Part shown: piece by piece, positions 28,575 to 49,608 of the stretch
Layout: the number at the start of each line of letters is the position of its first letter
How positions within the stretch are numbered: position 1 is the first letter of the stretch
The notes under the pieces: model-generated
Databases searched by the model: none
What the model was told of the DNA's origin: nothing
Seen by the model: only the letters and a program-made list of their open reading frames with translations
Source: Actinoallomurus purpureus
Lineage (GTDB): Bacteria > Actinomycetota > Actinomycetes > Streptosporangiales > Streptosporangiaceae
NCBI RefSeq assembly: GCF_024055795.1
Contig: NZ_JAMXMY010000001.1
Span: 682,001 to 746,000, forward strand
Length of the DNA stretch: 64,000 nucleotides
Reading direction: 5' to 3'
Translations under genes and position numbers: made by a program

Positions 28575-28577
28575 GGG

Positions 28578-31887: not shown

Positions 31888-31906
31888 CGAGAAGAAGGAG
31901 TACCTG

Positions 31907-33417: not shown

Positions 33418-34161
33418 ATGACGAACTCGAACCCCAGCAAGATCGTTCTGATCACCGGAGCGAACAAGGGCATCGGCTTCGCCGCCGCACGCGAGCTCGC
33501 CGTGGCCGGGCACACCGTCCTGCTCGGCGCCCGCGACCCCGGGCGCGGGACCGCGGCCGCGGCGGAGCTGGCCGCGCAGGGCCTGGCCGTACGCTTCGTG
33601 CACCTGGACGTGACCGAGCCGGACACGATCGAGGCGGCGGCCCGGCTGATCTCCGAGACCCACGGCCGGTTGGACATCCTGATCAACAACGCCGGCATCA
33701 GCCGCGACCGGCCCCACCCGCCGACCGAGCTGCCCGTCGCGGCGCTGCGCGAGGTGTATGAGACCAACGTGTTCGGCGTCGTGGCCGTCACGAACGCGAT
33801 GCTGCCGCCGCTGCGCAGGTCACCGGCCGCGTACGTCGGCAACGTGTCCAGCGGGCTGGGCACCGTCGCGTTCCTCACCGACCCGGACGCGCCGTTCTGG
33901 CAGTACGCGAACCTGCTCGCCTACAACTCTTCCAAGGCCGCGATGAACGCGATCACCCTGATCTACGCGCACACACTGCGGGACAGCGGGATCATGGTCA
34001 ACGCCCTGTCCCCGGGGTTCTGCGCGACCGACCTGAACAATCACACCGGTCACCTCAGTGCGGACGAGGGCGGGGCGCACATCGCCCGCCAGGTCACCCT
34101 GCCCGGCGACGGGCTCACCGGTGTGTTCCTCAACGAGAACGGCGGCACCCACCCGTGGTGA
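33418..34161 (+). CDS. Short-chain dehydrogenase/reductase (carbonyl-reductase-like)
   Basis: 247 residues. LITGANKGIGFAAARELA at 11-28, HLDVTEPDTIEAA, ILINNAGISRDRP near 90, NVSSGLGTV (catalytic Ser) and LAYNSSKAAMNAITLIYA (Tyr-Asn-x-x-Lys). The ending GDGLTGVFLNENG is typical of the carbonyl reductase-like SDRs paired with MmyB-type regulators. The divergent HTH gene is 103 bases away. Confidence 0.87.
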   Translation: MTNSNPSKIVLITGANKGIGFAAARELAVAGHTVLLGARDPGRGTAAAAELAAQGLAVRFVHLDVTEPDTIEAAARLISETHGRLDILINNAGISRDRPHPPTELPVAALREVYETNVFGVVAVTNAMLPPLRRSPAAYVGNVSSGLGTVAFLTDPDAPFWQYANLLAYNSSKAAMNAITLIYAHTLRDSGIMVNALSPGFCATDLNNHTGHLSADEGGAHIARQVTLPGDGLTGVFLNENGGTHPW

Positions 34162-34216
34162 ACGGCCCGTGGTCCGATCAGCTCGTGACAGGTGGCCGGG
34201 CGGCTGGGAGTGGGTG

Positions 34217-34630
34217 TCAGTGGGCGGGGGCGAGTTCGGCCAGCAGTTCGCGGACGCGCCGGTCGATCTCGTCCCGGATGGGGCGGACCTGCTCGGCGGC
34301 TTCGCCGGCCGGGTCGGGCAGCTCCCAGTCCAGGTAGCGCTTGCCGGGGAACACCGGGCAGACGTCCCCGCAGCCCATGGTGATGACCACGTCGGCGCCC
34401 TGGACGGCCTCGCCGGTCAGCGGCTTGGGGAACTCCTTGGACAGGTCGATGCCGAGCTCGTCCATCACGGCGACCACGGCGGGGTTGATCTCGTCGGCAG
34501 GTGCGGATCCGGCGGAGCGGACACGCACCTGCCCGGCGGCGTGGTGGTCGAGCAGGGCGGCGGCCATCTGCGAACGTCCGGCGTTGTGGACGCAGACGAA
34601 CAGGACCTCCGGGACGTGGGTCACGCTCAC
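34217..34630 (-). CDS. arsC: Arsenate reductase, LMW-phosphatase type
   Basis: 137 residues. FVCVHNAGRSQMAAALL carries the P-loop CX5R (Cys13, Arg19), and RVRSAGSAPADEINPAVV is conserved in thioredoxin/mycothiol-linked ArsC enzymes. ITMGCGDVCPVFPGKRYLDWELPDPAG gives the later redox cysteines. It reduces arsenate to arsenite. GAGGA precedes the GTG start. Third gene of the leftward arsR-aquaporin-arsC group, 108 bases after the aquaporin stop. Confidence 0.92.
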   Translation of the reverse strand: MSVTHVPEVLFVCVHNAGRSQMAAALLDHHAAGQVRVRSAGSAPADEINPAVVAVMDELGIDLSKEFPKPLTGEAVQGADVVITMGCGDVCPVFPGKRYLDWELPDPAGEAAEQVRPIRDEIDRRVRELLAELAPAH

Positions 34631-34738
34631 TCCTCGGGTTCGAGCGGCTGCGGTGAGCCGTTCGGTTGCGGATCTCAGGGCCAGGACCTGTGGGTGGTCA
34701 TCGATGCGGGCGGACTTATCGAGCAGGCGAGGGCGGGT

Positions 34739-35500
34739 TCACGCGGAGGCGGGCTGCTGAGCGCCGGCCGCCGGTTCCGCGTGCGGGACGACGACGTCAT
34801 CGGCACCCGAGCCTGTCCCGGCGGCCGGGTACAGGACGAGCACGAGGGCGGCGCCGATGAGGGCGCCGGCGAGTTGTGCGGCGATGAAGGGGGCGACCGA
34901 GGCGGGGGCGATGCCGGCGAAGGTGTCGCTGAAGGCGCGGGCGATGGTGACGGCGGGGTTGGCGAAGGAGGTGGAGGAGGTGAACCAGTACGCGGCACCG
35001 ATGTAGGCGCCGACCGCAGCCGGGGCGAGCCGGGCCCGATCGGTGCGGGCCAAGGCGAAGATGAGGGCGACCAGCCCCGCGGTGGCCACCACCTCACTCA
35101 GCCACAGGTGGCCGCTGGAGCGATCCTTGGACGCGGTGGATACCGCAGGCAGGGCGAACATCAGATTCGCCAGCATCGCCCCGCCGATCCCCCCGGCGAT
35201 CTGGGCGGGCAGGTAGGCGAGCAGGTCTCGGCCGGGCAGACCTGAGGCGGCCTTGCGGCCGAGCGCCCAGTCCACGATCGAGACGACCGGGTTGAAGTGA
35301 GCGCCGGAAACCGGCCCGAACAACACGATGAGGACCGTCAGCCCGGCCGCGGTCGCCACGGCGTTCTCCAGCAGCTCCAGCCCGACATCGCGTGGGGACA
35401 GCTGCGCGGCCATGATGCCCGAGCCGACCACCACGGTCACCAGTAGACCCGTGCCGATGAACTCGGCGAGCGCCCGCCGCGCCAACGGCGGGGCGGTCAC
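34739..35500 (-). CDS. aqpS: Aquaporin-family (MIP) arsenite channel
   Basis: 253 residues with six membrane segments and both channel half-helices: GAHFNPVVSIVDW (NPV variant) and TSFANPAVTIARAF (NPA). The GTG start overlaps the TGA of arsR by the GTGA tetranucleotide, so it is coupled to arsR. In Sinorhizobium meliloti an aquaporin in the ars operon, AqpS, lets arsenite leave the cell down its gradient after ArsC reduction; the same arrangement here suggests the same role. No ArsB or Acr3 pump gene is in the window. The name is given by analogy. Confidence 0.85.
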   Translation of the reverse strand: MTAPPLARRALAEFIGTGLLVTVVVGSGIMAAQLSPRDVGLELLENAVATAAGLTVLIVLFGPVSGAHFNPVVSIVDWALGRKAASGLPGRDLLAYLPAQIAGGIGGAMLANLMFALPAVSTASKDRSSGHLWLSEVVATAGLVALIFALARTDRARLAPAAVGAYIGAAYWFTSSTSFANPAVTIARAFSDTFAGIAPASVAPFIAAQLAGALIGAALVLVLYPAAGTGSGADDVVVPHAEPAAGAQQPASA

Positions 35501-35883
35501 CGGGCCCCCACCAGCGCCTGGGCCTGCGGGCCCAGCAGGGCCGACAGTCGCGCCAGGACGCCCGGGTTGATCCAGTAGTACACCCATGTGCCCCGGCGCT
35601 CGGAGTCGATCAGCCCGGCCTGCTTGAGCACCTTCAGGTGGTGGGAGATCGTGGGCGCCGTCAGGTCGAAGGCCGCGGTCAGGTCGCACACGCACGCCTC
35701 GCCGCCCTCATGGCAAGCGATCAGCGACAGCAGCCGCAGCCGCACCGGATCGCCGATCGCCTTGAACAGCGGCGCCAGCTCCTCGGCCTCCGCGACGCCC
35801 AGCGGCTCACAGACCAGCGGCGCGCAGCACGCCCCGGCATCAACGGCTGCGTCGTCGACCAGCGGCAACACTTGCTTCGACAT
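35497..35883 (-). CDS. arsR: ArsR-family arsenical repressor
   Basis: 128 residues. Winged helix with LFKAIGDPVRLRLLSLIA, then the arsenic site CVCDL (ACVCDLTAAFDLTAPTISHH) and LKQAGLIDSERRGTWVYYWI. Extra cysteines near the N-terminus (GACCAPLVC) may add metalloid ligands. The start at 35883 follows a GAGA; the longer ORF start at 35919 is not needed. Controls its own operon and probably the divergent arsI through the sites at 35893-35948. Confidence 0.93.
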   Translation of the reverse strand: MSKQVLPLVDDAAVDAGACCAPLVCEPLGVAEAEELAPLFKAIGDPVRLRLLSLIACHEGGEACVCDLTAAFDLTAPTISHHLKVLKQAGLIDSERRGTWVYYWINPGVLARLSALLGPQAQALVGAR

Positions 35884-35892
35884 GTCTCTAAT

Positions 35893-35948
35893 TTGACATC
35901 CATCTAGGCAAGGACGCAAGCTGAGTTCACACTACTTAGACATTCATC
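35893..35948. promoter_or_regulatory. Candidate ArsR operators, two copies
   Basis: TTGACATCCATC (35893-35904) and TAGACATTCATC (35937-35948) share the core GACAT-C/T-CATC. They lie between the divergent arsR and arsI genes, 44 bp apart. Each could serve one promoter. ArsR/SmtB binding is inferred from position and repetition. Confidence 0.5.
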
Positions 35949-36054
35949 GAATCAGAGAGCCTTTGGTTCGGGCCCGTACCGCCGCCGTCGCGGCAAGCCT
36001 CGGCTACCGCCTTCGACCAACCCCGTCCGGCATCGTTCGATCGAGGAGGAAGTC

Positions 36055-36567
36055 ATGTCACGTGTTCAGCTCGCCCTGCGCGTCGCCGACCTGGAAGGTT
36101 CCATCGCCTTCTACTCCAAGCTGTTCGGCACCGAGCCCACCAAGCGCCGCCCCGGCTACGCCAACTTCGCCATCACCGAACCGCCGCTCAAGCTCGTCCT
36201 GATCGAAGGCGAGGCCGGCGAGACGACCCGCCTGGACCACCTGGGTGTCGAGGTCGAAGACACCGGCCAGGTGAGCGCGGCGACCCAGCGGCTCAGGGAC
36301 GCCGGCCTGGCCACCTTCGAGGAGAACGACACCTCCTGCTGCTACGCCCTCCAAGACAAGGTCTGGGTCCACGGCCCCGGCCAGGAGCCCTGGGAGGTCT
36401 ACGTCGTGAAGGCCGACGCCGGCACCCTCGGCAAGAGCGCCGCCCCTGCCGCCGACGGCGCTTGCTGCGGCACGACCGCCTGCTGCACCCCCGACGAGAA
36501 GGCCCTTGACCCGGCCCAGACCACCGCTGAGGCCAAAGCCGCCGCCGGGTGCGGCTGCAGCAGCTGA
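36055..36567 (+). CDS. arsI: ArsI-type carbon-arsenic lyase (VOC family)
   Basis: 170 residues. A vicinal-oxygen-chelate fold with the candidate metal ligands Gln5 (RVQLALRVADLEGS), His62 (RLDHLGVEVE) and Glu114 (EPWEVYVVKA), and the vicinal cysteines Cys95-Cys96 (NDTSCCYALQDK) that bind trivalent arsenicals in ArsI. ArsI removes methyl or aryl groups from trivalent organoarsenicals using Fe(II) and oxygen. The tail (ACCGTTACCTP ... GCGCSS) is cysteine-rich and may help bind metalloid. GAGGAGGA precedes the ATG. Divergent from arsR. Confidence 0.9.
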   Translation: MSRVQLALRVADLEGSIAFYSKLFGTEPTKRRPGYANFAITEPPLKLVLIEGEAGETTRLDHLGVEVEDTGQVSAATQRLRDAGLATFEENDTSCCYALQDKVWVHGPGQEPWEVYVVKADAGTLGKSAAPAADGACCGTTACCTPDEKALDPAQTTAEAKAAAGCGCSS

Positions 36568-36588
36568 CCCGCACCGGCGGAGGGATCC

Positions 36589-37446
36589 TCAGGCCGGATG
36601 CCCCGCTGCGGTCTCGGCGGCGAAGCGGGCGGTGAAGGCCGCGCGGTTGGCCGATTCCGGTTTGCGGTCCCAGACCGCGAAGACCACGTGGTCGAAGACG
36701 GTGGAGAACTCCCCATCCGCCGTGAGGTGGGCGTGGAACGCCTCGGCGACCTGGCGCGGATCGTTGCGGAACACCCCGCACCCCCACGCGCCGAGGACCA
36801 GCCGATCTGCGCCATGGTGGGCGGCCACGGCCAGCACCCGCCGCGCCCGGTCCCGGAGCACTCCGGGGATCCGGTCCCGTACGGCCGGGTCCCGGCGCAG
36901 CGCCTCCCCGGTGTTGGGGGCGGGGCAGGTCAGGAACGACACCGGATACGGCTCGGCCAGCAGCTCCCCGTCATCGCCGCGGTGCACCGGGACGTCGGGG
37001 GACCAGATGACGCGGTCGCTGTAGAGCAGGTCGGGGGAGGCGCGGTGCGCCTCGTAGTAGTCACGGGCCCGCAGCAGGCACGGGTACAGGAAGGAGTGCC
37101 GGCACAGATCCTCCTCCTGCGCGCGGGCGCCGCCGACGTATCCGCCGCCGGGGTTGCGCGCCGAGGCGAAGTTCAGCACGGCGATCCGGCCGGTGCCGGT
37201 GAGGTGGAGCCTCCGGGCCGCGCGCAGGCTGCCCTCGGCGGTCACCTCGAAGCGCGTACGGTGACCGGGCCCGGCCGGGGGCGGCGCGATGGTCGCGTCC
37301 GGGGGATGGCTGACCGTGGCCGCCATCGCGGCGTCCAGCGCCGGACCGACGACAACGACGGTGCCGTCCGGAAGGGCGTACTCGCCGTCGGCGACGATCT
37401 GTGCGTTGTCGGCCGCGTACCGGCGCAATCGGGTACTCACGGGCAT
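36589..37446 (-). CDS. Bacterial-type poly(ADP-ribose) glycohydrolase (TIGR02452)
   Basis: 285 residues, macrodomain-like. The PARG signature is clear: NPGGGYVGGARAQEEDLC with GGG at 100-102 and the catalytic pair QEE at 110-112. RHSFLYPCLLR and VLGAWGCGVFRNDPRQVAEAF follow as in the family. It hydrolyses poly(ADP-ribose) chains. No ADP-ribosyltransferase is visible in the window, so the substrate source is unknown. Convergent with arsI, tail to tail; the acetyltransferase gene on the same strand is 68 bases upstream. Confidence 0.9.
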   Translation of the reverse strand: MPVSTRLRRYAADNAQIVADGEYALPDGTVVVVGPALDAAMAATVSHPPDATIAPPPAGPGHRTRFEVTAEGSLRAARRLHLTGTGRIAVLNFASARNPGGGYVGGARAQEEDLCRHSFLYPCLLRARDYYEAHRASPDLLYSDRVIWSPDVPVHRGDDGELLAEPYPVSFLTCPAPNTGEALRRDPAVRDRIPGVLRDRARRVLAVAAHHGADRLVLGAWGCGVFRNDPRQVAEAFHAHLTADGEFSTVFDHVVFAVWDRKPESANRAAFTARFAAETAAGHPA

Positions 37447-37514
37447 GGGATCGTACGGGGCTCGGGCAGGCCCGATCGAACGGTTTTACCGGCCGAGACC
37501 CGTAGGCCGGCGGG

Positions 37515-38081
37515 CTATCCGGCCTGGCGGGCCCGCCATTCGTCCTCGAGCATCGCGTAGACCACCTCGTCGGTCCACTCGCCCTTGACGAGCTCGTTCT
37601 GCACCAGGTGCGCCTCGCGGCGCATCCCGATGCGTTCGAGCACCCGTGCCGAGGCGGTGTTGCGGCCGTCGAGGCGCCCGACGACACGATGCAGGCCGAG
37701 CCCCTCGAACCCCAGGCGGAGCATCGCCTCGGAGGCCTCGGTCGCATAGCCGCGGCCGCCGTGGCCGGGGTGGAACACGTAGCCGATCTCGCCCTGGCGG
37801 TGTTCGCGGCTGGTCCAGATCAGCAAGGCGTCGCCGATGAGCGTGCTGGACTCCGGCAGGACCACCGCCAGCTGCAGGGAGCCGCCCTCATCGGCCAGCA
37901 CCGAAGAGTGGATCTTCTTCTCCAGCGCCTCGCGGACCTCGTCGCGGTCGCGGGCCTCCCAGTACAGGTACTGGGTGACCTCCGGCCGCGACTGGATCTC
38001 GTGGAGGGCGTCGAGGTCGTCGGGAGTGTAAGGGCGCAGGTGAAGGCGTTCGGTGATGATCGGGTAATCGGGCTTCAGCAC
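37515..38081 (-). CDS. GNAT N-acetyltransferase (RimJ/RimL-like)
   Basis: 188 residues from GTG 38081. RLHLRPYTPDDLDAL at the start, the acetyl-CoA loop GHGGRGYATEASEAMLRLGF near 105-124, and VVGRLDGRNTASARVLERIGMR after it. The pattern fits acetyltransferase_3 (RimJ-like) enzymes that acetylate small molecules or N-termini. AGGA lies eight bases upstream. In the same direction as the PARG gene. Confidence 0.88.
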   Translation of the reverse strand: MLKPDYPIITERLHLRPYTPDDLDALHEIQSRPEVTQYLYWEARDRDEVREALEKKIHSSVLADEGGSLQLAVVLPESSTLIGDALLIWTSREHRQGEIGYVFHPGHGGRGYATEASEAMLRLGFEGLGLHRVVGRLDGRNTASARVLERIGMRREAHLVQNELVKGEWTDEVVYAMLEDEWRARQAG

Positions 38082-38163
38082 CGGTCGATCCTATGGGCCG
38101 CCATCCCCGCGCCGGATCGCGTCGCAGCGGACACAGGAGATCCCACGCGACCTGCTCGAGCCG

Positions 38164-38589
38164 TCAGCGGTAGAAGCCCTCGACCGGGACGCGTGCCTCC
38201 TCGAAGAGCGCCGGGCCCTCCTGGGGCACCACCGGCCAGCCGCCGCCCGGTTTGAGCGCGACGAGCTGCTCGTTGGACAGCGCGAACACCACGCGTCCCA
38301 GGCCGGAACGCTCGATGGCGCCCGAGCACATCGTGCACGGCTGGCAGCTGGTGTACATGGTGGTGGCCGCCGCCGTGGCGGAATCCAGCTCGCGGGCCGC
38401 CCACCGGGCCAGCTTCAGCTCCGGGTGGGCGGAGATGTCACGGTCACTGGTGACCGTGTTGTGCTCCTCGGCCAGCACGTCGCCGTCGGGGCCGACCAGC
38501 AGCGAGCCGAACGGGGCGTCCCCGCTCGCGCGTGCCTTGGCGGCCAGTTCGACGGCCCTGCGCAGGAATCGCTCGTCCTCAGGTGTCAC
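38164..38589 (-). CDS. Nucleoside (guanine/cytosine-type) deaminase
   Basis: 141 residues. Zinc ligands and catalytic Glu in ISAHPELKLARWA (H-P-E replacing H-A-E) and SCQPCTMCSGAIERSG (P-C-x-x-C). DAPFGSLLVGPDG at the N-terminus completes the deaminase fold. It hydrolyses an amino group from a purine or pyrimidine base. Same direction as the GNAT gene with 82 bases between. GTG start at 38589. Confidence 0.87.
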   Translation of the reverse strand: MTPEDERFLRRAVELAAKARASGDAPFGSLLVGPDGDVLAEEHNTVTSDRDISAHPELKLARWAARELDSATAAATTMYTSCQPCTMCSGAIERSGLGRVVFALSNEQLVALKPGGGWPVVPQEGPALFEEARVPVEGFYR

Positions 38590-38760
38590 TGTCGCTCCGT
38601 TCGTCGTGGTGTGTGTCCAGGTCCCAGCGATCGGCCACGGTCGCGAGCGCCCGCCAGGCCCTCTGGGGATGAGGGCGGGCGCGCGTGCCCTGGGGCCGGT
38701 CCGCCGTACTTCGGCTCGGCTCCAGGGCGCCCTCTGCGCTGTCGTCGACGAGCGAAGGAC

Positions 38761-38791
38761 TTGATCTAGAGTCGGCTCTAGCTCCTAAGGT
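38761..38791 (+). promoter_or_regulatory. MerR-type promoter with palindromic operator
   Basis: TTGATC (38761-38766), a 19-bp spacer and TAAGGT (38786-38791) form the stretched -35/-10 pair typical of MerR-family control. The spacer carries the palindrome CTAGAG-tcgg-CTCTAG (38766-38781). It faces the aldo/keto reductase, whose TTG is 111 bases on. No MerR gene is visible nearby. Confidence 0.6.
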
Positions 38792-38901
38792 ACGGCGCGT
38801 GGCCGGACCTTCCGCCGCCCGCGCCCGTGGCAGCACCGGCGCCGCGATCATCGGCCGACGAGCCGCGTGATCACCCCGTATTCACGAGAAGGAGCACGAC
38901 C

Positions 38902-39951
38902 TTGCGCTACCGCGTTCTCGGCGGCACCGGCATCCAGGTGAGCGTCCACTGCCTGGGAGCCATGATGTTCGGCGCCGTGGGCAACCCCGACCACGACGAG
39001 TGCGTCCGCATCATCCACGCGGCCCTCGACCAGGGCATCAATTTCGTCGACACCGCCGACATGTACTCCGCCGGTGAGTCGGAGGAGATCGTGGGCAAGG
39101 CGCTGAAGGGCCGCCGCGACGACGTGGTGCTGGCCACCAAGGTGCACTTCCCGATGGGGGAGGGGCCCAACCGGGGCGGCAACTCGCGGCGCTGGATCAT
39201 CAAGGAGGTCGAGGAGAGCCTGCGGCGCCTGCGGACCGACTGGATCGACCTGTACCAGATCCACCGCCCCGACCACACCACCGACATCGAGGAGACCCTC
39301 TCGGCGCTCAGCGACCTGGTGCAGCAGGGGAAGATCCGGGCCTTCGGCTGCTCCACGTTCCCCGCCGATGAGATCGTTGAGGCCTACCACGTCGCCGAGC
39401 GCTACGGCCTGCGGCGTTTTCGGACCGAGCAGCCGCCGTACTCGCTCCTCGCCCGTGGCATCGAGGGCTCGGCGCTCCCTGTCTGCCGGCGTCTCGGGAT
39501 GGGCGTGCTGACGTGGAGCCCGCTCGCGTCCGGCTTCCTGACCGGCAGGTACCGCAAGGGCCGGCCCATCGACCTGTCCACCGGCCGCGCCTCGCTCACG
39601 CCGGCGCGCTTCGACCCCGCCCTCCCGCAGAACGCGAGGAAGTACGAGGCCGTCGAACAACTCATCGAGCTCGCCGCGGACCTCGGCTGCACCCTGCCCG
39701 AGCTCGCCGTCGCCTTCCCCATCGCCCACCCCGCGGTGACCTCGGTGATCATCGGTCCTCGGACGATGGAACAGCTGCAGAACAGCCTCAAGGGCGCCTC
39801 GCTCACCCTCGACGACGCGACCCTCGACCGGATCGACGAGATCGTGCCCCCGGGGACCGACCTGTACCGGGCGGACGGCGCCTGGCAGGCCCCTTCGCTG
39901 ACCGACACCTCGGCGCGGCGCCGCCCGCTCACCGACCGCGCCGCCGGCTGA
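38902..39951 (+). CDS. Aldo/keto reductase
   Basis: 349 residues from a TTG at 38902 with AAGGAG eight bases upstream; the longer in-frame ORF crosses the leader and is not protein-like. AKR tetrad pattern: FVDTADMYSAGESEEIVGKA (Asp, Tyr), VVLATKVHFP (Lys) and LYQIHRPDHTTD (His). SVIIGPRTMEQLQNSLKG near 300 binds the cofactor phosphate. NADPH-dependent reduction of carbonyls. The MerR-type promoter ahead suggests induction by a xenobiotic or oxidant; the leader also holds a 23-codon GTG frame (38799) that could be a leader peptide. Confidence 0.87.
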   Translation: MRYRVLGGTGIQVSVHCLGAMMFGAVGNPDHDECVRIIHAALDQGINFVDTADMYSAGESEEIVGKALKGRRDDVVLATKVHFPMGEGPNRGGNSRRWIIKEVEESLRRLRTDWIDLYQIHRPDHTTDIEETLSALSDLVQQGKIRAFGCSTFPADEIVEAYHVAERYGLRRFRTEQPPYSLLARGIEGSALPVCRRLGMGVLTWSPLASGFLTGRYRKGRPIDLSTGRASLTPARFDPALPQNARKYEAVEQLIELAADLGCTLPELAVAFPIAHPAVTSVIIGPRTMEQLQNSLKGASLTLDDATLDRIDEIVPPGTDLYRADGAWQAPSLTDTSARRRPLTDRAAG

Positions 39952-40073
39952 GCGCCGGAACCCAGGCGGCGTTCGGGCGGCCTGGCCGAACGCCGTCCGA
40001 CGGGTCCATCGGGTGTGGAGGGCGTTTCGCTACGCTCAGCGCTATTTGATGATCCGGCTGGAGTTGACAACGC

Positions 40074-43000
40074 ATGACGTCGGTCGACGATACGGTCCTC
40101 ACCGCCATACGCTGCGCTGATACGGACCGGCTTTCAGCCAGCCTCGATCCATTGAAGTGTCCGCCAGCCGTCCTCCAGCTTCTTATCAGGCATGAGGATC
40201 CACGACTGCGGGGATTGGGCCTCGTATGCCTTGCCGAACGCCTTGATGCGAGACGAGATGAAGACCGATCCGAGCTGGCCGAATTCGCGGCGTCGTTGCC
40301 GGGCTCACTCAATGGTCCGCCGGAGGCAGCGCTGGCCCTGGCGCACCTTTATCTCCAGCTGCGGGCCTACGTCCGGCCCCGGCTGCCCTGGCCGCAGTGG
40401 CGTAAGGCGGATCTGCCGACCCGGGTCCAAATCGCGTGGCTGAGCGCCGAGATCGCTGACCGGCCTGAGACCCTGCGGGACGAGCCTGCGGGCGAACTGC
40501 TCTACCAGGCGGTCCGCGGGATCGGCGCCGCTAATGTAGACGAACCGGAAAGCTTCGCCCGGGAGTTGTCGGACCGGCTCGATCCTGTGTTGCGGGCAGA
40601 GGCTCTGCGGGTTACTCGCGAGGCCGTGCACGCCGGCCTGCTGGCACCGGAACGAGCCCGGACGCTCGTGGTGGGGCTCGCCGGATCGATCGCAGGGCAA
40701 CCCGCCACGGACGCCTCCGCAGCCGACCTCGCCGCGGCGGCGCTGCGTGAGCTGTCAGAGCCCTGGGCCGCGTTGGATCCGCTGCCACAAGAGCACCTGT
40801 ACCGGCTCCTCGAGACCGGGCCCGGCGCCACCGTCTGCGCAGTGGCCGCCGCAGCGATCGAAGCCGCAGCCCACCACGGGCATCAGGACGTGCTCCGCGA
40901 CGTGGCCGCCGACCGAAATCGGCCCCCAGCGCTCCGACGACGCGCACTGGAGCTGCTGGGGGACTTTGCGAGCCGCGATGACGTCCACGACCTCGCGGGC
41001 ATTGCCGCTACCGACCCCCTTTTGCTCGCTGGGCCGGTCATCCGGTGCCTACGTGGGCTACACCGGCGTGGGCACTTCCCATCGGGCGACGATGCCCCGG
41101 CGATCGTGCGCTTGGCCATCGCCGACCATTCGGTGCCCGCGGACGAGGTCGCCACCATCTTGTTCACGTGCCGGCGCGCGACGCTCCAGGAGCTGACGAC
41201 GGCGGCTGCGAACGATCCGCACTGGCCGCGGCGGCTGGAACTTCTGGTCGCCCTGGCCGCTCAGGGCACAGGGGACCTACCGGTGGGTAAGAAGGTCACT
41301 GACCTGCTGCGCGCCGCGCCGGATCCGCGACCGTTCTTGCGAGCGATCCGCGCGCTGCGCCATACGGCCGCCGAGGAGGCCGTCATCGCCGCGCTACCAC
41401 GGTCACCTGCGGCAGCGCTGGGCGCTCTTGAAGCCGTGGGCGGAGCCCGGACGGTCACGGCGCTGCGAGACGGGCTGGGCCTGGACGGGTCAGATGGCAG
41501 AGACGCTGCCGGCGCTGTGGCGTCCTACCTGCGGCCGGTTCGCCACCGGGCCCTGGAAGTGCTGTGGCATCTCACCGAGGACCCCGACCGGCGACAGTCG
41601 ATCCTCGTTCGGCTCGACCCGCAGGATCTGCCTCGCCGGATCGCCGCCGATCTCGGCGGCCCGGACGAACGGGAACTGGCGTTGCTCCGCGCGGGCCTGG
41701 ACCCGGATAAGCCCGTGGCTGCCCTGTGCAAGCTGGCGCGCAACGGCAGCTCCAGCACAGTGCCGGCCATCGCCGACCTTCTGCTGCGGGTCGTGTCCGA
41801 CCTCGCGGCATCCTGGGCGCCGGGAGCGTCCGGCGGCACCAGCGAACCGACAGTGCCGCAGGAAGTCGTTGCGGCCATTCGTGACCTCGGCGGTCGCCTC
41901 CACGAAAGAGCGAAGATCCGGCCGAACTGTCTTTTGGACGCCGCAGACGCGCGAGAGGCCGGCGACGCGCTCGTCGCGAGCATCGCGCTCGATCTACTGG
42001 ACCGCCCCACGCTCACGGCGGCCGAGCAAATGATCCTGCTCGACCTGCTCCTCCAGACTTCCCATCGCGAAATCCGGGCACGAGTACATCCGCTGCTTCG
42101 CCACCGTGACCGCCACGTCCGCAAGCACGTGATCGCGCTATTCGCCCGCGACGCCGACGGCGAGGACGCACAGGCATTGTCGGCAAGCCTGATCCCGCTC
42201 ACCGCCGCCCCCGACGTGCAGACCGTACGCCAAGCGCTGCTCGCGCTCGGACACGCGCGCGCGTGCTGGGCCGCGGCTGCGGTCGCGGCCTGCCTCGACC
42301 ATCCCAACATGAACGTCAAGAAGACCGCCGCGGCCGCGCTGATCCACGCCGGAACCGCGGTGGCTGTGCCGAAGCTGCTGTTGTGGCTCGGCAGGCACGA
42401 CAACCCGGGCCTGCGCGCCGCGCTCATCGAGGCGTTGCGGACGATCCTCGGTGACGCGTACGCCGCCACCGTCGTCGCCGCGGCCGACCGCGCCGGCGAC
42501 GACCGTACCCGTGCCCTGCTGCTGACCGGCCTCGATGGCTCACTGTCCGCCCGTGCCGTCGGCGCTCTGGCCGACCAGGGGTCACCGGCCGGATCCACCC
42601 TGTTCTCGCTCGTCGCCGCAGGCCGACTCACCCTTGGTTCGGGTACGGCTGCGGACCTGACGGACCAGATGGCGGCCCACGGCATCACGCCGCCAGCCGG
42701 TCAAGGACCGCCAGCCGCCCGGCCGGACGCCGAACTCGACGCCCTGGCGAGGCACGGCTGGAACACCGAGATCGCACGGTGCCTTGCGGAAAGGTTCGAC
42801 CGGGATCCCGACGAGCTAACCGCCGAACGGCTAAGCCGGCTCCGGCCGATGCTGGCACGTTGGCTGGAACTGGCCGCCGAAGGTCCAGAACATCGCGGCC
42901 GGGTCCTGCGGTTCATGTTGCAGCTCTGCCCCCCGCCGTGGACAGCCGGTGAGACGGAGACCTTCGCCCGGTCGGTACGGACGCTGGTCGCAGGGCTGGC

Positions 43001-44891
43001 CGACGTCGGCGATGCTCATCGCGACCGTCTCCTCACACTGCTTGAGGACACGGTCGTACGGCTGCCCTCCACCGACATGTTCGACATCGCCGCCCGGATT
43101 CGCGCGCTGCCGCCGGAAGCCGCGGGGAGCCGGTCCGCGCTGGTGCTGCTGCGCCGATGCGGCGCAGTGCTGACCCGCACCGACCTCGGGCGGGCGCTGG
43201 CCGCCGCCCGCGCGGGCGCGAACCCGTGGCTGGCTGAGGAGGAAGTGTTGCGGGAGGCATTCGGGCTGCCAGGACCGGTCGCCGCCGCATCGAGCGGCAG
43301 CGCTGAGGCGCCCGAGCGCCCTGCCGTACGCCGATGGCGGGAGGCCATCGCTGCGGCCGTCCGCACACCCGACGCCCTCCGGCGATTCCGCGTCGCCGAC
43401 CGGCCCGTAGACGGCCTCGACTCCCAAGACCCTGACGAGGCCGCCCACCGACACCTCGCCCATGCTGGTCGCGACGGACGCCCGACGGATTCACGGGACC
43501 GGCTCAACGCACTGATCGGCGTCTTCGGCAACGCCGACACCAAGGTGCGCGACGTCCTGCTGGACTGGATGATCGAGCTGCAGCCACTCGACGCACCATC
43601 GTGGACCATCGCGGAGGACGCCCGCCGATCCATGTCAACCGGCCGCGTACCTCGTCCCGGTGATCGGGACCAGCCCCGCTCAGCGGCCCTGCATGAGCGC
43701 CTGCTGAAGATGCTGGACGATCCCGTGCAGGATCAACGCGAAGCCGCGGCCCGCGCCTTGCTGAGCTGGCCCGAACCCCAGTTCCGGCTTACGGTGCTGC
43801 GTGCCTTCCTCGACGGCCGGGTCGACCTCGCCGTCACCGCGGATCTCGCGCATGTCCTGACCCTCATGAGCGAGACCGAACTGCGCGAGGCCGGCGAGCA
43901 TGGCTCCGGCGGCGACGCGGCTTGCGAACGGATCGCCCGCGTCGCCGCCCATCTGCACCCACCGGACGTGGACCGATTCATCCCCCTGTTGTTGGCATGG
44001 TGGGAACACGGCGGACCCCCCCTTCACGCGTCAGCCGAGCGGGCGTTGCGCAAGGCGGCCCCCGATGTCCTGGCCGAGACCCTGTCCGGCCGCCTCGAAA
44101 CCGGAGCCTGGGGCCTGCTCGATCTCATCTCCGACGTCGCGCTGCTGCGTACCCCCACGCTGGCGCGGGCGCATCGGCGACTACGCGACGAAGGACGCGA
44201 CGACCTCGCGGACAAGATCGTGCTGGTGGAAGGGCCGCTGCGCCATCCCAACGCGGCCCAGCAGGACTCCGCCGCTCTCTCGGCGCTCCGCAGCCGAACC
44301 CGTGTCCCGGAAGCGGTCGCTCGGGAACAACGGGCGCCCCGGGCGGAACTGCTCCACCTGGCCCGTACCGGCGGCCCCGAGCAGATCCGCCGGGCGCTGA
44401 CCCTGCTCGCCGAGCGTCACGACGACGACCCCGCCCGCGTGCGCCGACACGGCGCGGGCCGGCCGGCGGATCGCGATCCCGAGCTTAAGGAACTACTCGC
44501 CGAGTCGCTCGGCCATCCCGAGGCGAGAGTCCGGCTGCACGCCCATCGGATCTCCCGCAAGGTGATGAACCACGGGGACTACCTGGAACAGACCTTGCTA
44601 CTCCTGGACGACCGGCAACCCGACATCGTGCGCTCGGCGGTCAAGACCTTGTGCCACGCGGCGTGGAAGCCAGCCATCCCAGCACTGGTCGACCTGCTCA
44701 CGCACTCCCACGCCGCCGTCCGAAGGGCTACCTCCGACGGGCTCGTGCTCCTCGGTGCGCCGGCGTGCCCTGCACTCAGGCACGCCGCCGGCAGGGCACG
44801 CCCGGACAAACGACACCTCTACACCACCGTGCTCGAGGGGATCACATCCACGACTACCGCTGACCTGGAACCCAACGGCCGACCAGGGTGA
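40074..44891 (+). CDS. Giant HEAT-repeat protein, 1605 aa
   Basis: 1605 residues of alpha-helical repeats, no signal peptide and no membrane segment. HEAT/PBS-lyase-like units are clearest at about 675-790 (HRDRHVRKHVIALFARD; AACLDHPNMNVKKTAAAALIHAG; WLGRHDNPGLRAALIEALR) and at the C-terminus near 1520-1590 (AVKTLCHAAWKPAIPALVDL, THSHAAVRRATSDGLVLLG). The front (SLDPLKCPPAVLQLLIRHEDPRLRG) fits too. No enzymatic motif found. Probably a large scaffold for protein-protein contact. It begins 122 bases after the aldo/keto reductase and stops seven bases before Tn3 debris. ATG 40074 has only a weak GGAG upstream. Confidence 0.85.
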   Translation: MTSVDDTVLTAIRCADTDRLSASLDPLKCPPAVLQLLIRHEDPRLRGLGLVCLAERLDARRDEDRSELAEFAASLPGSLNGPPEAALALAHLYLQLRAYVRPRLPWPQWRKADLPTRVQIAWLSAEIADRPETLRDEPAGELLYQAVRGIGAANVDEPESFARELSDRLDPVLRAEALRVTREAVHAGLLAPERARTLVVGLAGSIAGQPATDASAADLAAAALRELSEPWAALDPLPQEHLYRLLETGPGATVCAVAAAAIEAAAHHGHQDVLRDVAADRNRPPALRRRALELLGDFASRDDVHDLAGIAATDPLLLAGPVIRCLRGLHRRGHFPSGDDAPAIVRLAIADHSVPADEVATILFTCRRATLQELTTAAANDPHWPRRLELLVALAAQGTGDLPVGKKVTDLLRAAPDPRPFLRAIRALRHTAAEEAVIAALPRSPAAALGALEAVGGARTVTALRDGLGLDGSDGRDAAGAVASYLRPVRHRALEVLWHLTEDPDRRQSILVRLDPQDLPRRIAADLGGPDERELALLRAGLDPDKPVAALCKLARNGSSSTVPAIADLLLRVVSDLAASWAPGASGGTSEPTVPQEVVAAIRDLGGRLHERAKIRPNCLLDAADAREAGDALVASIALDLLDRPTLTAAEQMILLDLLLQTSHREIRARVHPLLRHRDRHVRKHVIALFARDADGEDAQALSASLIPLTAAPDVQTVRQALLALGHARACWAAAAVAACLDHPNMNVKKTAAAALIHAGTAVAVPKLLLWLGRHDNPGLRAALIEALRTILGDAYAATVVAAADRAGDDRTRALLLTGLDGSLSARAVGALADQGSPAGSTLFSLVAAGRLTLGSGTAADLTDQMAAHGITPPAGQGPPAARPDAELDALARHGWNTEIARCLAERFDRDPDELTAERLSRLRPMLARWLELAAEGPEHRGRVLRFMLQLCPPPWTAGETETFARSVRTLVAGLADVGDAHRDRLLTLLEDTVVRLPSTDMFDIAARIRALPPEAAGSRSALVLLRRCGAVLTRTDLGRALAAARAGANPWLAEEEVLREAFGLPGPVAAASSGSAEAPERPAVRRWREAIAAAVRTPDALRRFRVADRPVDGLDSQDPDEAAHRHLAHAGRDGRPTDSRDRLNALIGVFGNADTKVRDVLLDWMIELQPLDAPSWTIAEDARRSMSTGRVPRPGDRDQPRSAALHERLLKMLDDPVQDQREAAARALLSWPEPQFRLTVLRAFLDGRVDLAVTADLAHVLTLMSETELREAGEHGSGGDAACERIARVAAHLHPPDVDRFIPLLLAWWEHGGPPLHASAERALRKAAPDVLAETLSGRLETGAWGLLDLISDVALLRTPTLARAHRRLRDEGRDDLADKIVLVEGPLRHPNAAQQDSAALSALRSRTRVPEAVAREQRAPRAELLHLARTGGPEQIRRALTLLAERHDDDPARVRRHGAGRPADRDPELKELLAESLGHPEARVRLHAHRISRKVMNHGDYLEQTLLLLDDRQPDIVRSAVKTLCHAAWKPAIPALVDLLTHSHAAVRRATSDGLVLLGAPACPALRHAAGRARPDKRHLYTTVLEGITSTTTADLEPNGRPG

Positions 44892-44897
44892 CCGAGT

Positions 44898-45029
44898 CCA
44901 CGCCTTGGTCACCGCCGTGACCCGCCGCCGCAGCGCCGGGTCCGCAAGGCATCGAAGGAGCGCAACGGTGCGTACGGACCGGCCGGCCTCCCGGAATGCC
45001 TTGTAGATCTCGCCCTTGCGAGAGTGTGA
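44898..45029 (-). pseudogene. Tn3 transposase internal fragment
   Basis: The minus frame reads SRKGEIYKAFREAGRSVRT followed by VALLRCLADPALRRRVTAVT, matching the C-terminal third of the DDE domain of Tn3-family transposases (SRKxxIYKAFREVGR...IRTxxLLRYLxDxxLRRRVTAATNK). Only about 44 residues remain and neither end has a start or stop. Seven bases after the HEAT gene. Confidence 0.7.
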
Positions 45030-45040
45030 ACCCAGCCGGC

Positions 45041-45160
45041 GCAGCAGTACGGCGCACACTCCAGTACAGCGCAGATCGGCTCCACACCGAACTGCTCCCG
45101 GTGAGCATCGATGAACTCGACTAGTGCGGCAGTTTCGGGGTCGAGTTCCCGGGCGAAATA
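45041..45160 (-). pseudogene. IS3-type transposase fragment
   Basis: The minus frame reads ARELDPETAALVEFIDAHRE then QFGVEPICAVLECAP, the beginning of IS3-family OrfB (FIDxHRxxFGVEPICxVL). Only about 35 residues. It abuts the Tn3 fragment with no spacer, so one element was inserted in or deleted against the other. Confidence 0.65.
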
Positions 45161-45256: not shown

Positions 45257-45833
45257 ATGCATATCGACGAGTTGGTCGAGCACTGGACGATCCTGGACGA
45301 AGAGCGCGACCTCATCGTTGGCAAGCGCGGCGCCACGCGCCTCGCCTTCGCGATCTTGCTGATGTTCTACACCCAGTACGGCCGTTTCCGCGCGGACGCT
45401 CGGAGCTGCCCGACCAGGTCGTCGAACACGTGGCCAAGCAGGTCCAGGTCCCCGCCTCGGAGCTCGGCTTCTACGAGTGGTCCGGCTCCACCATCGAGTA
45501 CCACCGCAATCAGATCCGCACGCACCTCGGTTTTCGTACCTGCACAACCGCTGACGCGACGAAGGTGACGGTGTGGCTGGCCGAGAACGTCGCACACGCT
45601 GAGCGACGGCCCGAGCGGGTACGGGAGGAACTCCTCAAGCACCTGCGGGAGGAGAGGATCGAGCCGCCCACTGATGCTGCAAGACGTCCTGGCCGATCCG
45701 GAGTGGGCCAGGCTGCTCAAGCCCGCCGACCGGCGCGGGCTGACGCCGCTGTTCTGGCAGCACGTCCAGCCCTACGGCGAGGTACGGCTGGACGTCGCCA
45801 AGCGACTGGCGCTGAGCGGGGATGTCGCGCAGC
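45257..45833 (+). pseudogene. Tn3 transposase deletion derivative (N-terminus joined to extreme C-terminus)
   Basis: MHIDELVEHWTILDEERDLI and GKRGATRLAFAILLMFYTQY start the DUF4158 domain. A one-base loss near 45393 shifts frame; then GRSELPDQVVEHVAKQVQVP, YEWSGSTIEYHRNQIRTHLG and ERRPERVREELLKHLREERI follow to about 45670. There the sequence jumps to LMLQDVLADPEWARLLKPAD, GLTPLFWQHVQPYGEVRLDV and AKRLAL, the transposase's last 50 residues. Some 800 residues including the DDE core are missing. A different Tn3 subgroup from the relic at 19.6-21.1 kb. Confidence 0.8.
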
Positions 45834-45864: not shown

Positions 45865-46548
45865 TCACGGCGGGAGGTCGCGCCAGCGTTCGGCCGACGC
45901 CAGACCATCCAGGCTGATCCGCTCCAGGAACGCACCGCCCCTGGTCAGGCGGCGTCCCACGGGCGTGTCGAGCCCGAGCGTCTGCCCCGCCGCCTTAGCG
46001 ATTTCAGCCGCCGCGAGCGTCTGCCGCAAGCTGATCACCGTCGAGTGGTACCAGGCGTCGTCGTCGACCACGTAGATGTCGTGCCGCCGCTGCGGATCAC
46101 GTTCGCGCCTGATCAGCCCCTGCTGGGTCAGGTAGCCCACCGCCATGGAGATCGAGGCGGGACTGACTTTCAGCCCGCGCGACAGCTCGGCCGCAGTGAG
46201 CCTGCCGTCCTCGCTCAGCCACAGGCCGATGAGCACGCGCGCCACCATTTTCGGCACGCCCATCCCGATCGCCATCTCGACGGCTCCCTCTTCCACCTCG
46301 AAGACCTTGCGGTCCTGGGGTTCGGCCTCGGGCGAACGTGCCGGGGTGCCGCGCCGCGCCCGCCGCGCTGTCGCCTGGTGCGCCCGCTCGGGGCGGTAGT
46401 CGCTGGGGCCGCCGTTGCGGCCGACCTCACGGCTGATCGTCGAGGTCGGCCGGTCCAGCCGCCTGGCGATCTGGGCGTAGGAGCGGCCTTCGGCGAGGCC
46501 GGTCGCGATGCGCTGGCGGTCCTGCAGGGTCAACCTTCCTTCTGACAT
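45865..46548 (-). CDS. Regulator: IS30-like HTH fused to GbsR/MarR-like winged helix
   Basis: 227 residues from ATG 46548. Residues 5-45 (RLTLQDRQRIATGLAEGRS, IARRLDRPTSTISREVGRNG) are the HTH_38 of IS30 transposases. Residues about 70-150 (AIGMGVPKMVARVLIGLWLS; TAAELSRGLKVSPASISMAV; LTQQGLIRRERDPQRRHDIY) are a GbsR/MarR winged helix. No DDE residues, so this is a regulator. Divergent from the P450 gene with three palindromes between. Its end abuts the Tn3 derivative. Confidence 0.82.
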   Translation of the reverse strand: MSEGRLTLQDRQRIATGLAEGRSYAQIARRLDRPTSTISREVGRNGGPSDYRPERAHQATARRARRGTPARSPEAEPQDRKVFEVEEGAVEMAIGMGVPKMVARVLIGLWLSEDGRLTAAELSRGLKVSPASISMAVGYLTQQGLIRRERDPQRRHDIYVVDDDAWYHSTVISLRQTLAAAEIAKAAGQTLGLDTPVGRRLTRGGAFLERISLDGLASAERWRDLPP

Positions 46549-46697: not shown

Positions 46698-47903
46698 ATG
46701 AACACGTTCTATCGCGATGAGCCGGTCACTCCGTCCCTCGACCGCGCACCCGCCTGCCCCTTCGATCCCGCCCCTTCACTCACCGCCCTGCGCGCAGAGC
46801 AGCCAATCGCCCGTGTGGCCGCGCCCGAGGGCGCCCCCGGCGTCTGGATGATCACCGGATACGACCTGGTCCGCCAGATCCTCGCCGACCCGCGGTTCAG
46901 CTCCCGCTACGAAACCCACTACCACCCCCTGGCGGGCGGGCACCTGCCGCCCGCCCCCGTCGGCGACCTGACCGGCATGGACGCACCCCAGCACACTCGC
47001 TTCCGCAAGCTGCTGGCGGGCAAGTTCACCGTCCGCAGGATGAACCTGCTCACCGAGCGGGTCACCGAGATCACCCGTGAGCGGCTCGACGCGATGCAGC
47101 GGCAGGGTCCGCCCGCCGACCTCGTCGAGGTCTTCGCGCAGCCGGTTCCAGCGCTGATGATCTGTGAGCTGCTCGGCGTGCCGCACGAGGACCGCGACCA
47201 GTTCCAGAGCTCCACCCGGGCCCTGCCGGAGGCCGGGACCGCTGAGGCGCAGTACGCCGCCTTCGTCGAGCTCGGCACGTACCTGCGGGAGCTCGCGCTC
47301 GTCAAGCGGGCCAAGCCGACCGACGACCTGCTCAGCGACCTGGCCACCGGCGGCGACCTGACCGACGAGGAGCTCGGCGGCGTGGCCGCGTTCCTGCTCG
47401 GCGCCGGTTTCGACACCACCGCCAACATGCTCGCGCTCGGCACCTTCGCCCTGCTGCGCAACCCGGCCCAGCTCACCGCCCTGCGCGGCGATCCCGACCT
47501 GGCCGTCGGCGCCGTGGAGCAGCTGCTGCGTTACCTGTCTGTCGCCGCCACCGGTATGCGCGGCGTGCTGGAGGACGTGGAGCTCGGCGGCAGGCAGCTC
47601 AAGGCGGGCGACACGGTCGTCATCGCGATCAACGCCGCCAACAGGGACCCGGCCAGGTTCTCCGACCCCGACGTGCTCGATCTGCGCCGCTCGGCCGCCG
47701 GGCATCTGGCCTTCGGTCACGGCGTCCATCAGTGCCTCGGTCAGCAGCTTGCCCGCATCGAGATGCGTGTCGCGTTTCCCGCGCTGCTCATCCGCTTCCC
47801 GACGCTGCGGCTCGCCGTACCGGCTGAAGAGCTGTCGCTGCGTACCGACCCCTCGCAGGTGTACGGCGTGCACAGCCTGCCCGTCACCTGGGATCGAGGG
47901 TGA
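46698..47903 (+). CDS. Cytochrome P450
   Basis: 401 residues from ATG 46698 (GTG at 46695 possible). Heme loop FGHGVHQCLGQQLAR with Cys346, ExxR in EQLLRY (274-279), and the I-helix oxygen motif LLGAGFDTTANM near 233-244. MDAPQHTRFRKLLAGKFT is the C-helix signature of bacterial class I P450s (CYP105/107-like). Needs ferredoxin partners from elsewhere. The ABC ATPase gene overlaps or follows at once, linking this oxidase to an exporter: either a biosynthetic tailoring step or drug modification. The divergent regulator probably controls it. Confidence 0.92.
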   Translation: MNTFYRDEPVTPSLDRAPACPFDPAPSLTALRAEQPIARVAAPEGAPGVWMITGYDLVRQILADPRFSSRYETHYHPLAGGHLPPAPVGDLTGMDAPQHTRFRKLLAGKFTVRRMNLLTERVTEITRERLDAMQRQGPPADLVEVFAQPVPALMICELLGVPHEDRDQFQSSTRALPEAGTAEAQYAAFVELGTYLRELALVKRAKPTDDLLSDLATGGDLTDEELGGVAAFLLGAGFDTTANMLALGTFALLRNPAQLTALRGDPDLAVGAVEQLLRYLSVAATGMRGVLEDVELGGRQLKAGDTVVIAINAANRDPARFSDPDVLDLRRSAAGHLAFGHGVHQCLGQQLARIEMRVAFPALLIRFPTLRLAVPAEELSLRTDPSQVYGVHSLPVTWDRG

Positions 47904-47908
47904 ACGCG

Positions 47909-48853
47909 ATGCGAACCTTCGTCTCGGTGACGGGGCTGCGTAAGTCCTACGGCGCCCACCGCGTCCTGGACGGCATCGACCTCACGATCCCGCAGGGCAC
48001 CGTCTTCTCGCTGCTCGGCCCCAACGGCGCGGGCAAGACCACCACAGTGCAGATCCTGTCCACCCTGATCAAGGCCGACGCGGGCGAGATCTGGGTCGCC
48101 GGGCACGACCTGGCCAAGGAACCCGACAAGGTGCGAGCCGCAATCGGCGTCACCGGCCAGTTCGCCGCGGTCGACAGCTTCCTCACCGGCGAGGAGAACC
48201 TGCGACTCATGGCCGACCTGCTCCACCTCGGCCGCGCCAAGGGCCGCAGGCGCGTCCGCGAACTGCTGGAGCGCTTCGACCTCACCGATGCCGCACGCAA
48301 GCCCGCGGTCACCTACTCGGGCGGCATGCGCCGCCGGCTCGACCTCGCCATGACCATGGTCGGCACGCCCAGGCTCATCTTCCTCGACGAACCGACCGCA
48401 GGCCTGGACCCGCGCAGCCGCCGCACGATGTGGCAGATCGTCCGGGACCTCGTCCAGCAGGACGGCGTGACCATCTTCCTGACCACCCAATACCTGGAGG
48501 AGGCCGACGTACTCGCCGACCGCATCGCGCTGCTCAGCCAGGGCCGGTTGGTGGCCGAGGGCACCCCTGAGGAGCTCAAGCGAATGGTGCCCGGCGGCCA
48601 CATCGTCGTGCGCTTCGCCGACCCCGACGGGTACCGCAGGGCGGCCGGCCACGTCGGCGCCACCTCCAGCAACGACGCGGCGCTCACCGTCCAGATCCCC
48701 GACTCCGGCGGAGTCAGGACGCTGAGGAAGCTCCTGGAATGGCTGGACACGCATGCCATCGACGTCGCCGAGCTGTCGATGCACACCCCCGACCTGGACG
48801 ACGTCTTCCTCACACTGACCCAGGAGCCCTCGACCAAGGAGCCCTCCCGATGA
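47909..48853 (+). CDS. ABC exporter ATP-binding protein (DrrA-like)
   Basis: 314 residues. Walker A LLGPNGAGKTTTVQIL, signature YSGGMRRRLDLAMTM, Walker B RLIFLDEPTAGLDPRS. The switch region reads TTQYLEEADVLADRI, glutamine in place of histidine, a feature of DrrA-type drug exporters. A C-terminal DrrA domain follows. ATG 47909 has GAGGG upstream; GTG 47900 overlapping the P450 stop is an alternative. It energises the permease that follows, with a four-base ATGA overlap. Confidence 0.92.
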   Translation: MRTFVSVTGLRKSYGAHRVLDGIDLTIPQGTVFSLLGPNGAGKTTTVQILSTLIKADAGEIWVAGHDLAKEPDKVRAAIGVTGQFAAVDSFLTGEENLRLMADLLHLGRAKGRRRVRELLERFDLTDAARKPAVTYSGGMRRRLDLAMTMVGTPRLIFLDEPTAGLDPRSRRTMWQIVRDLVQQDGVTIFLTTQYLEEADVLADRIALLSQGRLVAEGTPEELKRMVPGGHIVVRFADPDGYRRAAGHVGATSSNDAALTVQIPDSGGVRTLRKLLEWLDTHAIDVAELSMHTPDLDDVFLTLTQEPSTKEPSR

Positions 48854-49608
48854 GAGCGATCACCGACTCGGCGACGATGCTGCGGCGCCAGGTCAAACAC
48901 ATCTGGCGCTACCCCACGCTGATCCTCACGTTCGCGTCCGTGCCCGTGGTGTTCCTGCTGCTGTTCGTCTACGTCTTCGGCGGCACCATGGGCGCGGGCA
49001 TCGGCGCCGACCGCGCCGCCTACGTCGGTTACCTCACCCCCGGCATCATGATCACGACGATCGTCGGGGCAGCGCAGGGGACCGCGATCTCGGTGGCGAC
49101 CGACATGACCGAGGGCATCATCGCCAGGTTCAAGACCATGGCCATCGCCCGCGTATCGGTGCTCACCGGTCACGTACTCGGGGCGATGGTGCAGACGTTC
49201 CTCGCGATTGCCATGGTGACCGTGGTGGCGTTGCTGATCGGGTTCCGCCCGTCCGCCTCGGTGCTGGACTGGCTCGGCGTGGTCGGTGTGCTGGCCATGT
49301 TCACCTTCGCGATCACCTGGCTGTCGGTCGCGCTCGCCATGGTCACCAAGAACGTGGCCACGGCCAGCAACCTGCCGATGCCGCTGATGCTGCTGCCGTT
49401 CCTCGGCAGCGGCTTCGTCCCGACCGAGTCGATGCCGGCTGGTTTGCGCTGGTTCGCCGAGCACCAGCCGGCCACCCCTGTCATCGAGACGCTGCGCGCG
49501 CTGCTGGCCGGGCGTCCGGCCGGGTCCAGCTTCCTGGAGGCGGCTGTGTGGAGCGCGGGCATCGCCCTGGTCAGTTATCTGTCGGCACGCCGGCTCTACA
49601 ACCGGTGA
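48850..49608 (+). CDS. ABC-2 type permease (DrrB-like)
   Basis: 252 residues, six hydrophobic segments (about 25-45, 60-80, 105-135, 142-165, 172-190, 228-246). GTMGAGIGADRAAYVGYLTPGI and the later PFLGSGFVPTESMPAGLRW are ABC2_membrane/DrrB features. Start overlaps the ATPase stop (ATGA). With the ATPase it exports a hydrophobic compound, perhaps the P450 product or substrate. Its 3' end overlaps a truncated DNA methylase on the other strand. Confidence 0.9.
   Translation: MRAITDSATMLRRQVKHIWRYPTLILTFASVPVVFLLLFVYVFGGTMGAGIGADRAAYVGYLTPGIMITTIVGAAQGTAISVATDMTEGIIARFKTMAIARVSVLTGHVLGAMVQTFLAIAMVTVVALLIGFRPSASVLDWLGVVGVLAMFTFAITWLSVALAMVTKNVATASNLPMPLMLLPFLGSGFVPTESMPAGLRWFAEHQPATPVIETLRALLAGRPAGSSFLEAAVWSAGIALVSYLSARRLYNR

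Follow-up and report, generated by a model that had tools for sequence, protein, structure and literature searches.

An intact gene of Actinoallomurus purpureus encodes a solitary giant HEAT scaffold of an old, apparently unnamed family

The window analyzed here, a 64,000 nucleotide stretch of the Actinoallomurus purpureus genome, contains an intact forward-strand gene (40074..44891, ATG start, stop codon included) that encodes a 1605 amino acid protein with zero internal stops. The coding frame is real, as it has long relatives at 80-85% identity with an overall dN/dS of 0.32-0.38 (window gene against six near relatives). The protein scores above the Pfam cut-offs for HEAT_2 (PF13646; E 7.8e-13, 49 bits, cut-off 27.7) and HEAT (PF02985; E 7.1e-8, 32.4 bits, cut-off 23.5), and beyond these two models Pfam reports only Arm and HEAT_EZ at E ≤ 0.1. 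At this threshold the chain contains no catalytic or enzyme domain, and no NTPase, protease, or nuclease domain. Matches to NCBIfam are all below cut-off (CpcF 25.2 bits versus 220, CpcE 13.9 versus 330), PADLOC profiles do not match, and PHROGs gave one match of unannotated function (E 0.0087). There is no model specific to the giant HEAT family in Pfam, NCBIfam, or PADLOC, and no PDB chain is related by sequence at E ≤ 0.01. The protein is near neutral (net charge -14, pI 6.5) and has no membrane-type stretch; the top 19-residue Kyte-Doolittle mean is 1.63 and this peak falls within a conserved HEAT repeat. No signal peptide is apparent at the N terminus, as judged by eye.

AlphaFold2 was run on two overlapping pieces of the protein and not on the full length as one model. 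Both pieces are predicted to be helical all along (amino acids 1-1200, mean pLDDT 80, pTM 0.69; amino acids 700-1605, mean pLDDT 83, pTM 0.40), with 93 helices across the two helix lists and two thirds of residues helical. By profile match and by the stacked helical hairpins of the predicted models, the protein is a HEAT-repeat alpha-solenoid. The original prediction, made from the DNA letters, of a HEAT-repeat protein of this length that lacks a catalytic motif, a signal, and a membrane span is therefore borne out, and the structure prediction it had proposed returned a helical solenoid, while Pfam showed no enzyme domain. The top Foldseek matches of both models are CAND1, SF3B1, and karyopherins, and the lists also include mTOR, IP3 receptor, condensin, and TRRAP chains. 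Because TM-scores are only 0.07-0.23 among the 50 solved chains listed per search, the matches support the fold class (HEAT solenoid) and not a relative.

The short HEAT and HEAT_2 models capture the helical hairpins found throughout the protein but miss the family's own length and its family-specific conserved blocks. CAND1, SF3B1, and karyopherin-beta are, like the window protein, long solenoids without an enzyme domain, but the bacterial protein resembles them only at the TM-scores above and mostly at 10-14% identity, and this comparison gives no evidence of a common function. AlkC and AlkD have HEAT-like repeats in common with the giant family, a few loci of which have DNA-repair neighbors, whereas their DNA_alkylation domain is absent from the window protein (Pfam, E ≤ 0.1); AlkD is also several times shorter. 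The CpcE/CpcF phycobilin lyases show a weak HEAT-level NCBIfam match far below the equivalog cut-offs. STAND/NACHT-HEAT NTPases carry in the chain an NTPase domain that is missing from the window protein (Pfam). Cpc7 of Myxococcus xanthus is a HEAT protein that binds CheY7 (PMC11514114), and thus a bacterial HEAT protein acting as a protein-binding partner, as proposed here for the window protein. Compared by description only, Cpc7 has 27 helices versus about 90 in the window protein.

Downstream of the gene are decayed transposon pieces. A remnant of the N-terminal part of a Tn3-family transposase (DUF4158; profile match, 45266..45669, forward strand) lies in two frames; the best stretch is at about 45385-45669 (E 1.9e-16) and a weaker piece begins in the other frame at about 45266. 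An IS3-like transposase scrap on the reverse strand (45002..45145) is weakly supported by a match to the phrog_157 transposase (E 0.0025) and has no Pfam match. The original prediction placed Tn3/IS3 fragments seven bases past the gene. The Tn3 part is certain and the IS3 part weak, but the recognizable parts begin about 375 and about 110 bases, respectively, after the stop codon. The debris looks incidental to the HEAT gene and not part of a system.

The region 28575..44881 is partly syntenic with a genus mate (G006), and DNA similarity stops at the 3′ end of the HEAT gene (44881). The HEAT copy of this genus mate is identical to that of Actinomadura sp. DC4, and the closest relatives of the window copy are Actinomadura copies that sit at another locus (85% identity for L068). 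In the tree, the window copy clusters with four Actinomadura copies and not with the genus mate (98 SH-aLRT; 94/97 in a second tree). This would fit a transfer of the gene between Actinomadura and Actinoallomurus, but a topology test did not reject placing the window and genus-mate (L002) copies together (p-AU 0.078).

We searched for relatives at several depths. Scanning 84,980 species genomes with a pattern that detects close relatives only gave 21, comprising 14 in Actinomadura, three in Streptomyces, and one each in Dactylosporangium, Murinocardiopsis, an actinomycete MAG, and a Polyangia MAG. Counting its own genome, the gene occurs in two of eight genomes of its genus and at least three of 61 of its family; it is in at least two of 158 of its class. 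The genus of Actinomadura macra has it in at least 32 of 65 genomes at E ≤ 1e-3 (30 at E < 1e-50, and two weak repeat matches), and Streptomyces in at least 18 of 101, one of them weak, which leaves 17 clear. A shallower Streptomyces search found at least 29 of 256 genomes at E ≤ 1e-20, the same 17 and 12 more. In the class Polyangia, at least 11 of 116 genomes are positive at E ≤ 1e-10, ten with large open frames and one with a short frame containing a stop. Apart from that of its own genus, these rates are lower bounds, with 8-34 candidates scored per genome.

The ten Polyangia frames encode 1333-1771 amino acids (one is cut by a contig end) and all match the actinobacterial family profile at E 2e-55 or better. 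The best of these proteins spans positions 18-1442 of the 1443 in the profile and several others match in two stretches; the contig-cut L012, L016, and L195 were left out of the coverage counts. Family members are about 1320-1770 residues long, some measured stop to stop. No relatives were found in plasmids and the central block (below) was not found in viral contigs, so we rejected a plasmid or phage origin. Among the titles and abstract openings listed for bacterial, actinobacterial, and myxobacterial HEAT proteins, none describes the family, with subscription papers mostly outside this set. The window gene is an intact representative of an old and apparently unnamed group of giant HEAT scaffolds that stand alone.

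The giant HEAT gene is maintained under purifying selection. Values of dN/dS are 0.20-0.27 at amino acids 401-800 and 0.40-0.65 at amino acids 1001-1400. Two Actinomadura copies (L085 and L086) are split into two or more open frames, by decay or by draft errors. Since the gene is missing or broken in many relatives, the protein is not essential. The gene is accessory, as originally proposed, yet old and constrained. It is sometimes lost and is held in one neighborhood in some clades.

Residue conservation was counted in 68 members with open frames longer than 1250 amino acids (59 of the 65 actinobacterial loci and nine Polyangia). Lysine makes up 0.6% of their residues and arginine 12%. There are 61 columns with at least 80% arginine, and only three in which lysine is the majority residue (K750 in 66 of 68, K684 in 54, and K749 in 50, with arginine in 17). 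N777, W231, and E434 are each present in all 68, M746 in 65, and N747 in 60. Near-invariant residues are packed most densely at amino acids 719-793 (LDHPNMNVKK ... HDNPGLR), within a central conserved block (codons 676-793, 42099..42452, forward strand) that is a candidate binding groove. A second conserved block is in the C-terminal repeats (codons 1481-1583, VRLHAHR..R ... ARPD.R..Y, 44514..44822, forward strand). Further stretches dense in conserved residues are found at amino acids 281-335, 601-640, and 1201-1248, and therefore the central block is not the sole candidate site.

In the AlphaFold2 model the central run sits at the turns and helix starts of consecutive hairpins, with helix A and B roles assigned by reading the helix list. 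The central repeats display a ladder of arginine or lysine (R683 in 64 of 68, R719 in 65, K749, and R781 in 66), with an acidic or amide residue four to five positions before it (D679 in 61, D714 in 65, N745 in 50, D776 in 64, and N777). The position following the ladder residue is lysine or glutamine in three of the four repeats (K684, Q720 in 56 of 68, and K750); position 782 is variable. The ladder arginine and its aspartate are partly ordinary HEAT framework, and lysine at the following position is found in generic HEAT repeats too. N777 and the retained lysines are the family's own features, beyond that framework. Because charge varies across the family (pI 5.8-11.1, net charge -25 to +41), some members may have a role with nucleic acids.

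Gene neighborhoods were analyzed for 65 actinobacterial loci (up to 8 kb per side, less at contig ends) with home-made codon-model gene calls; those from the A. macra genus are part of the copies found there. Loci were grouped when they had at least two neighbors in common, giving 30 neighborhoods. Repeat genomes (L072, L073, L074, and L079), a frameshifted contig (L013), and the Polyangia loci were left out of these counts. As controls we used 40 hand-positioned 20-kb regions from 15 carrier genomes, from Actinomadura and Streptomyces only and none from other genera, taking the first 16 kb for neighbor-family counts and the whole 20 kb for the ligase count given below. Thirteen neighbor families recur in at least three groups. 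The lowest raw p values are 0.022 for oxidoreductases (six groups versus one control) and 0.030 for ArsR-like regulators (four groups versus no control), and none of the 13 is significant after correction for 13 tests. With no neighbor family significantly shared by the 30 neighborhoods over the 40 controls, we rejected a conserved linked partner.

In the largest group, 16 Actinomadura loci adjoin genes for a dUTPase and a DUF3710 protein (Pfam confirmed in L004). The original prediction was to be weighed against homologs that are core and syntenic in most related genomes; these 16 loci do share a neighborhood, but the gene is missing from roughly half of the genus. A second group is formed by 12 Streptomyces loci beside a gene for a LigD 3′-phosphoesterase (Pfam confirmed in L112) and a third by four Actinomadura loci beside Ser/Thr-kinase-type genes (Pkinase confirmed in L001). 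In L124, two genes downstream of the giant, there is a 332-residue protein (6449..7447) that appears HEAT-like by eye, with no Pfam match at E ≤ 0.001.

Of the ten Polyangia loci, two (L189 and L192) were miscalled by the gene finder and L195 is cut by its contig. Their callable neighbors include one family common to L188 and L190 and otherwise differ. In L017 (7781..14269, the same genome as L188), the HEAT gene probably starts immediately after the end of a radical SAM gene, and the two may form an operon. We set aside a radical SAM partner, with no radical SAM match among nine neighbors from six other Polyangia loci.

At the 5′ end of the gene, 49 of the 65 loci have a TANNWT hexamer followed, after 5-9 nt (mostly 6-7), by an in-frame ATG or GTG close to the N terminus. 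Applied to internal in-frame start codons, this test gave 0 of 1453, though this control is coding DNA of a composition unlike upstream DNA, and several N-terminal starts were allowed per locus. L014 and L019 also show a -10-like hexamer in a separate upstream listing. The other 14 loci are the six of the window clade (window, L001, L002, and L067-L069) and eight more. A -10 hexamer directly before the start codon is the leaderless promoter layout in actinobacteria. Judging from these upstream regions, the giant HEAT gene seems usually to carry its own leaderless promoter, with the window clade as the exception. In the window, a candidate -10 element of a leadered version (TACGCT, 40031..40036) and a candidate ribosome-binding site (CTGGAG, 40058..40063, 10 nt before the ATG) precede the gene on the forward strand, and these two elements suggest a short leader with a ribosome site in this clade. 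The upstream sequence TCGCTACGCT is common to the window, L001, and L002.

With no constant neighbor in the 30 neighborhoods and an apparent own promoter in most loci, nothing points to a linked partner that was lost, and the original idea that a partner disappeared as the transposon decayed is not supported. Our preferred reading, to which we give about even credence, is that the protein is a cytosolic, stand-alone HEAT adaptor with a central groove for a protein or peptide ligand. About 45 helical hairpins would build a long superhelix around a protein or an extended peptide. The specific contact surface may be the groove formed by four or five successive central repeats (amino acids 676-793), where D679, D714, N745, and D776/N777 recur together with K684, Q720, and K750, and the C-terminal repeats (amino acids 1481-1583) might assist. 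We would expect the partner to be a cell component encoded elsewhere in the genome, because the gene occurs at unrelated chromosomal positions. The long relatives in Actinomycetota and Polyangia, the lack of a shared neighbor, the gene's own promoter-like hexamer, the kept lysines, the low dN/dS at amino acids 401-800, the binding scaffolds that head the Foldseek lists, and the near-neutral charge of the window protein argue for an adaptor; that no partner gene is linked in the 30 neighborhoods counts against it, as do the low TM-scores, the variable charge of the family, and the other densely conserved stretches.

An unlikely alternative is a DNA-repair or other nucleic-acid HEAT protein, similar to AlkC/AlkD or to a DNA-clamping HEAT subunit, that aids in strand-break sealing. 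Ligase-class genes (NAD ligase, ATP ligase, and LigD phosphoesterase) are found in five of 30 neighborhoods versus none of 40 controls (Fisher p 0.012), but the category was picked post hoc and the trend is weak: LigA alone gives three of 30 versus none of 40 (p 0.074), the seven of 12 later loci with a ligase-class gene are all in neighborhoods already counted, and four new neighborhoods (L145, L148, L150, and L151) have none. Other repair-type genes occur near some copies, including an Ada metal-binding domain right upstream in L009, a UvrA-like ATPase (by eye; Pfam ABC_tran) directly downstream in L070 (4709..7120), an Ada-AlkA gene and an MGMT gene some 8 kb upstream of the window copy, and the adjacent dUTPase in the 16 dut-locus loci (confirmed in one). 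Some members are basic, with a pI as high as 11.1. The missing DNA_alkylation match argues against this role, as does the absence of a damage-type promoter motif upstream (by eye). A hidden enzyme that relies on the N/K/H/D residues kept in the central block seems barely plausible; these polar residues are near-invariant, but the model places them where hairpins of ordinary appearance turn or begin a helix, and the protein has neither a Pfam enzyme domain at E ≤ 0.1 nor a PDB sequence relative.

Membership in a defense or signaling system, which had been suggested for the gene, is not supported, as there is no PADLOC match for the protein and no significantly shared neighbor. Conflict systems of multicellular bacteria can contain HEAT repeats as scaffold modules (PMC7159879), and the patchy distribution of the gene would fit a role as sensor or receptor in conflict with phages or with other bacteria. 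We find this distinctly unlikely given that the chain has no NTPase, protease, or nuclease domain, that plasmid relatives and viral-contig matches to the central block are lacking, and that 16 Actinomadura loci lie in one shared neighborhood. A scaffold for a Ser/Thr kinase signaling pathway is very unlikely. Kinase-type genes flank the copies of the L001/L067/L068/L069 clade, on both sides in three of the four, and adjoin L111 and the Polyangia L017 (Pkinase confirmed in L001, L111, and L017), but they occur in five of 30 neighborhoods versus two of 40 controls (p 0.11), and Ser/Thr kinase genes are abundant in these bacteria.

Most known giant HEAT scaffolds are eukaryotic, and few of those in bacteria have a known partner (PMC11514114). 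A broader picture, which we regard as possible though doubtful, is that the family is the bacterial equivalent of these eukaryotic scaffolds. It would be an old and self-contained protein of mycelial Actinomycetota and Polyangia, usually with its own leaderless promoter, that clamps one conserved cellular partner or an extended peptide by a central Asn/Lys groove, and the lone gene could then function at nearly any chromosomal site. The family has clear boundaries, precise invariant residues, and culturable hosts, and therefore the partner can be sought directly. The gene is a case of a solitary accessory gene that, although found at unrelated positions, retains a promoter-like element by its start codon. 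It also cautions that a large orphan gene near transposon debris need not be a broken defense system.

The window encodes several other genes around the giant. An Ada-AlkA fusion gene is followed by an O6-methylguanine-DNA methyltransferase gene (30418..32476), in the same order as in the genus mate G006. Closer upstream of the HEAT gene are a gene with a microbial-type PARG domain (36589..37446) and a cytidine-deaminase-like gene (38164..38589). Downstream, a MarR/HTH_38 regulator on the reverse strand (45865..46548) adjoins a tight row of genes for a cytochrome P450, an ABC ATPase, and an ABC-2 permease (46815..49608).
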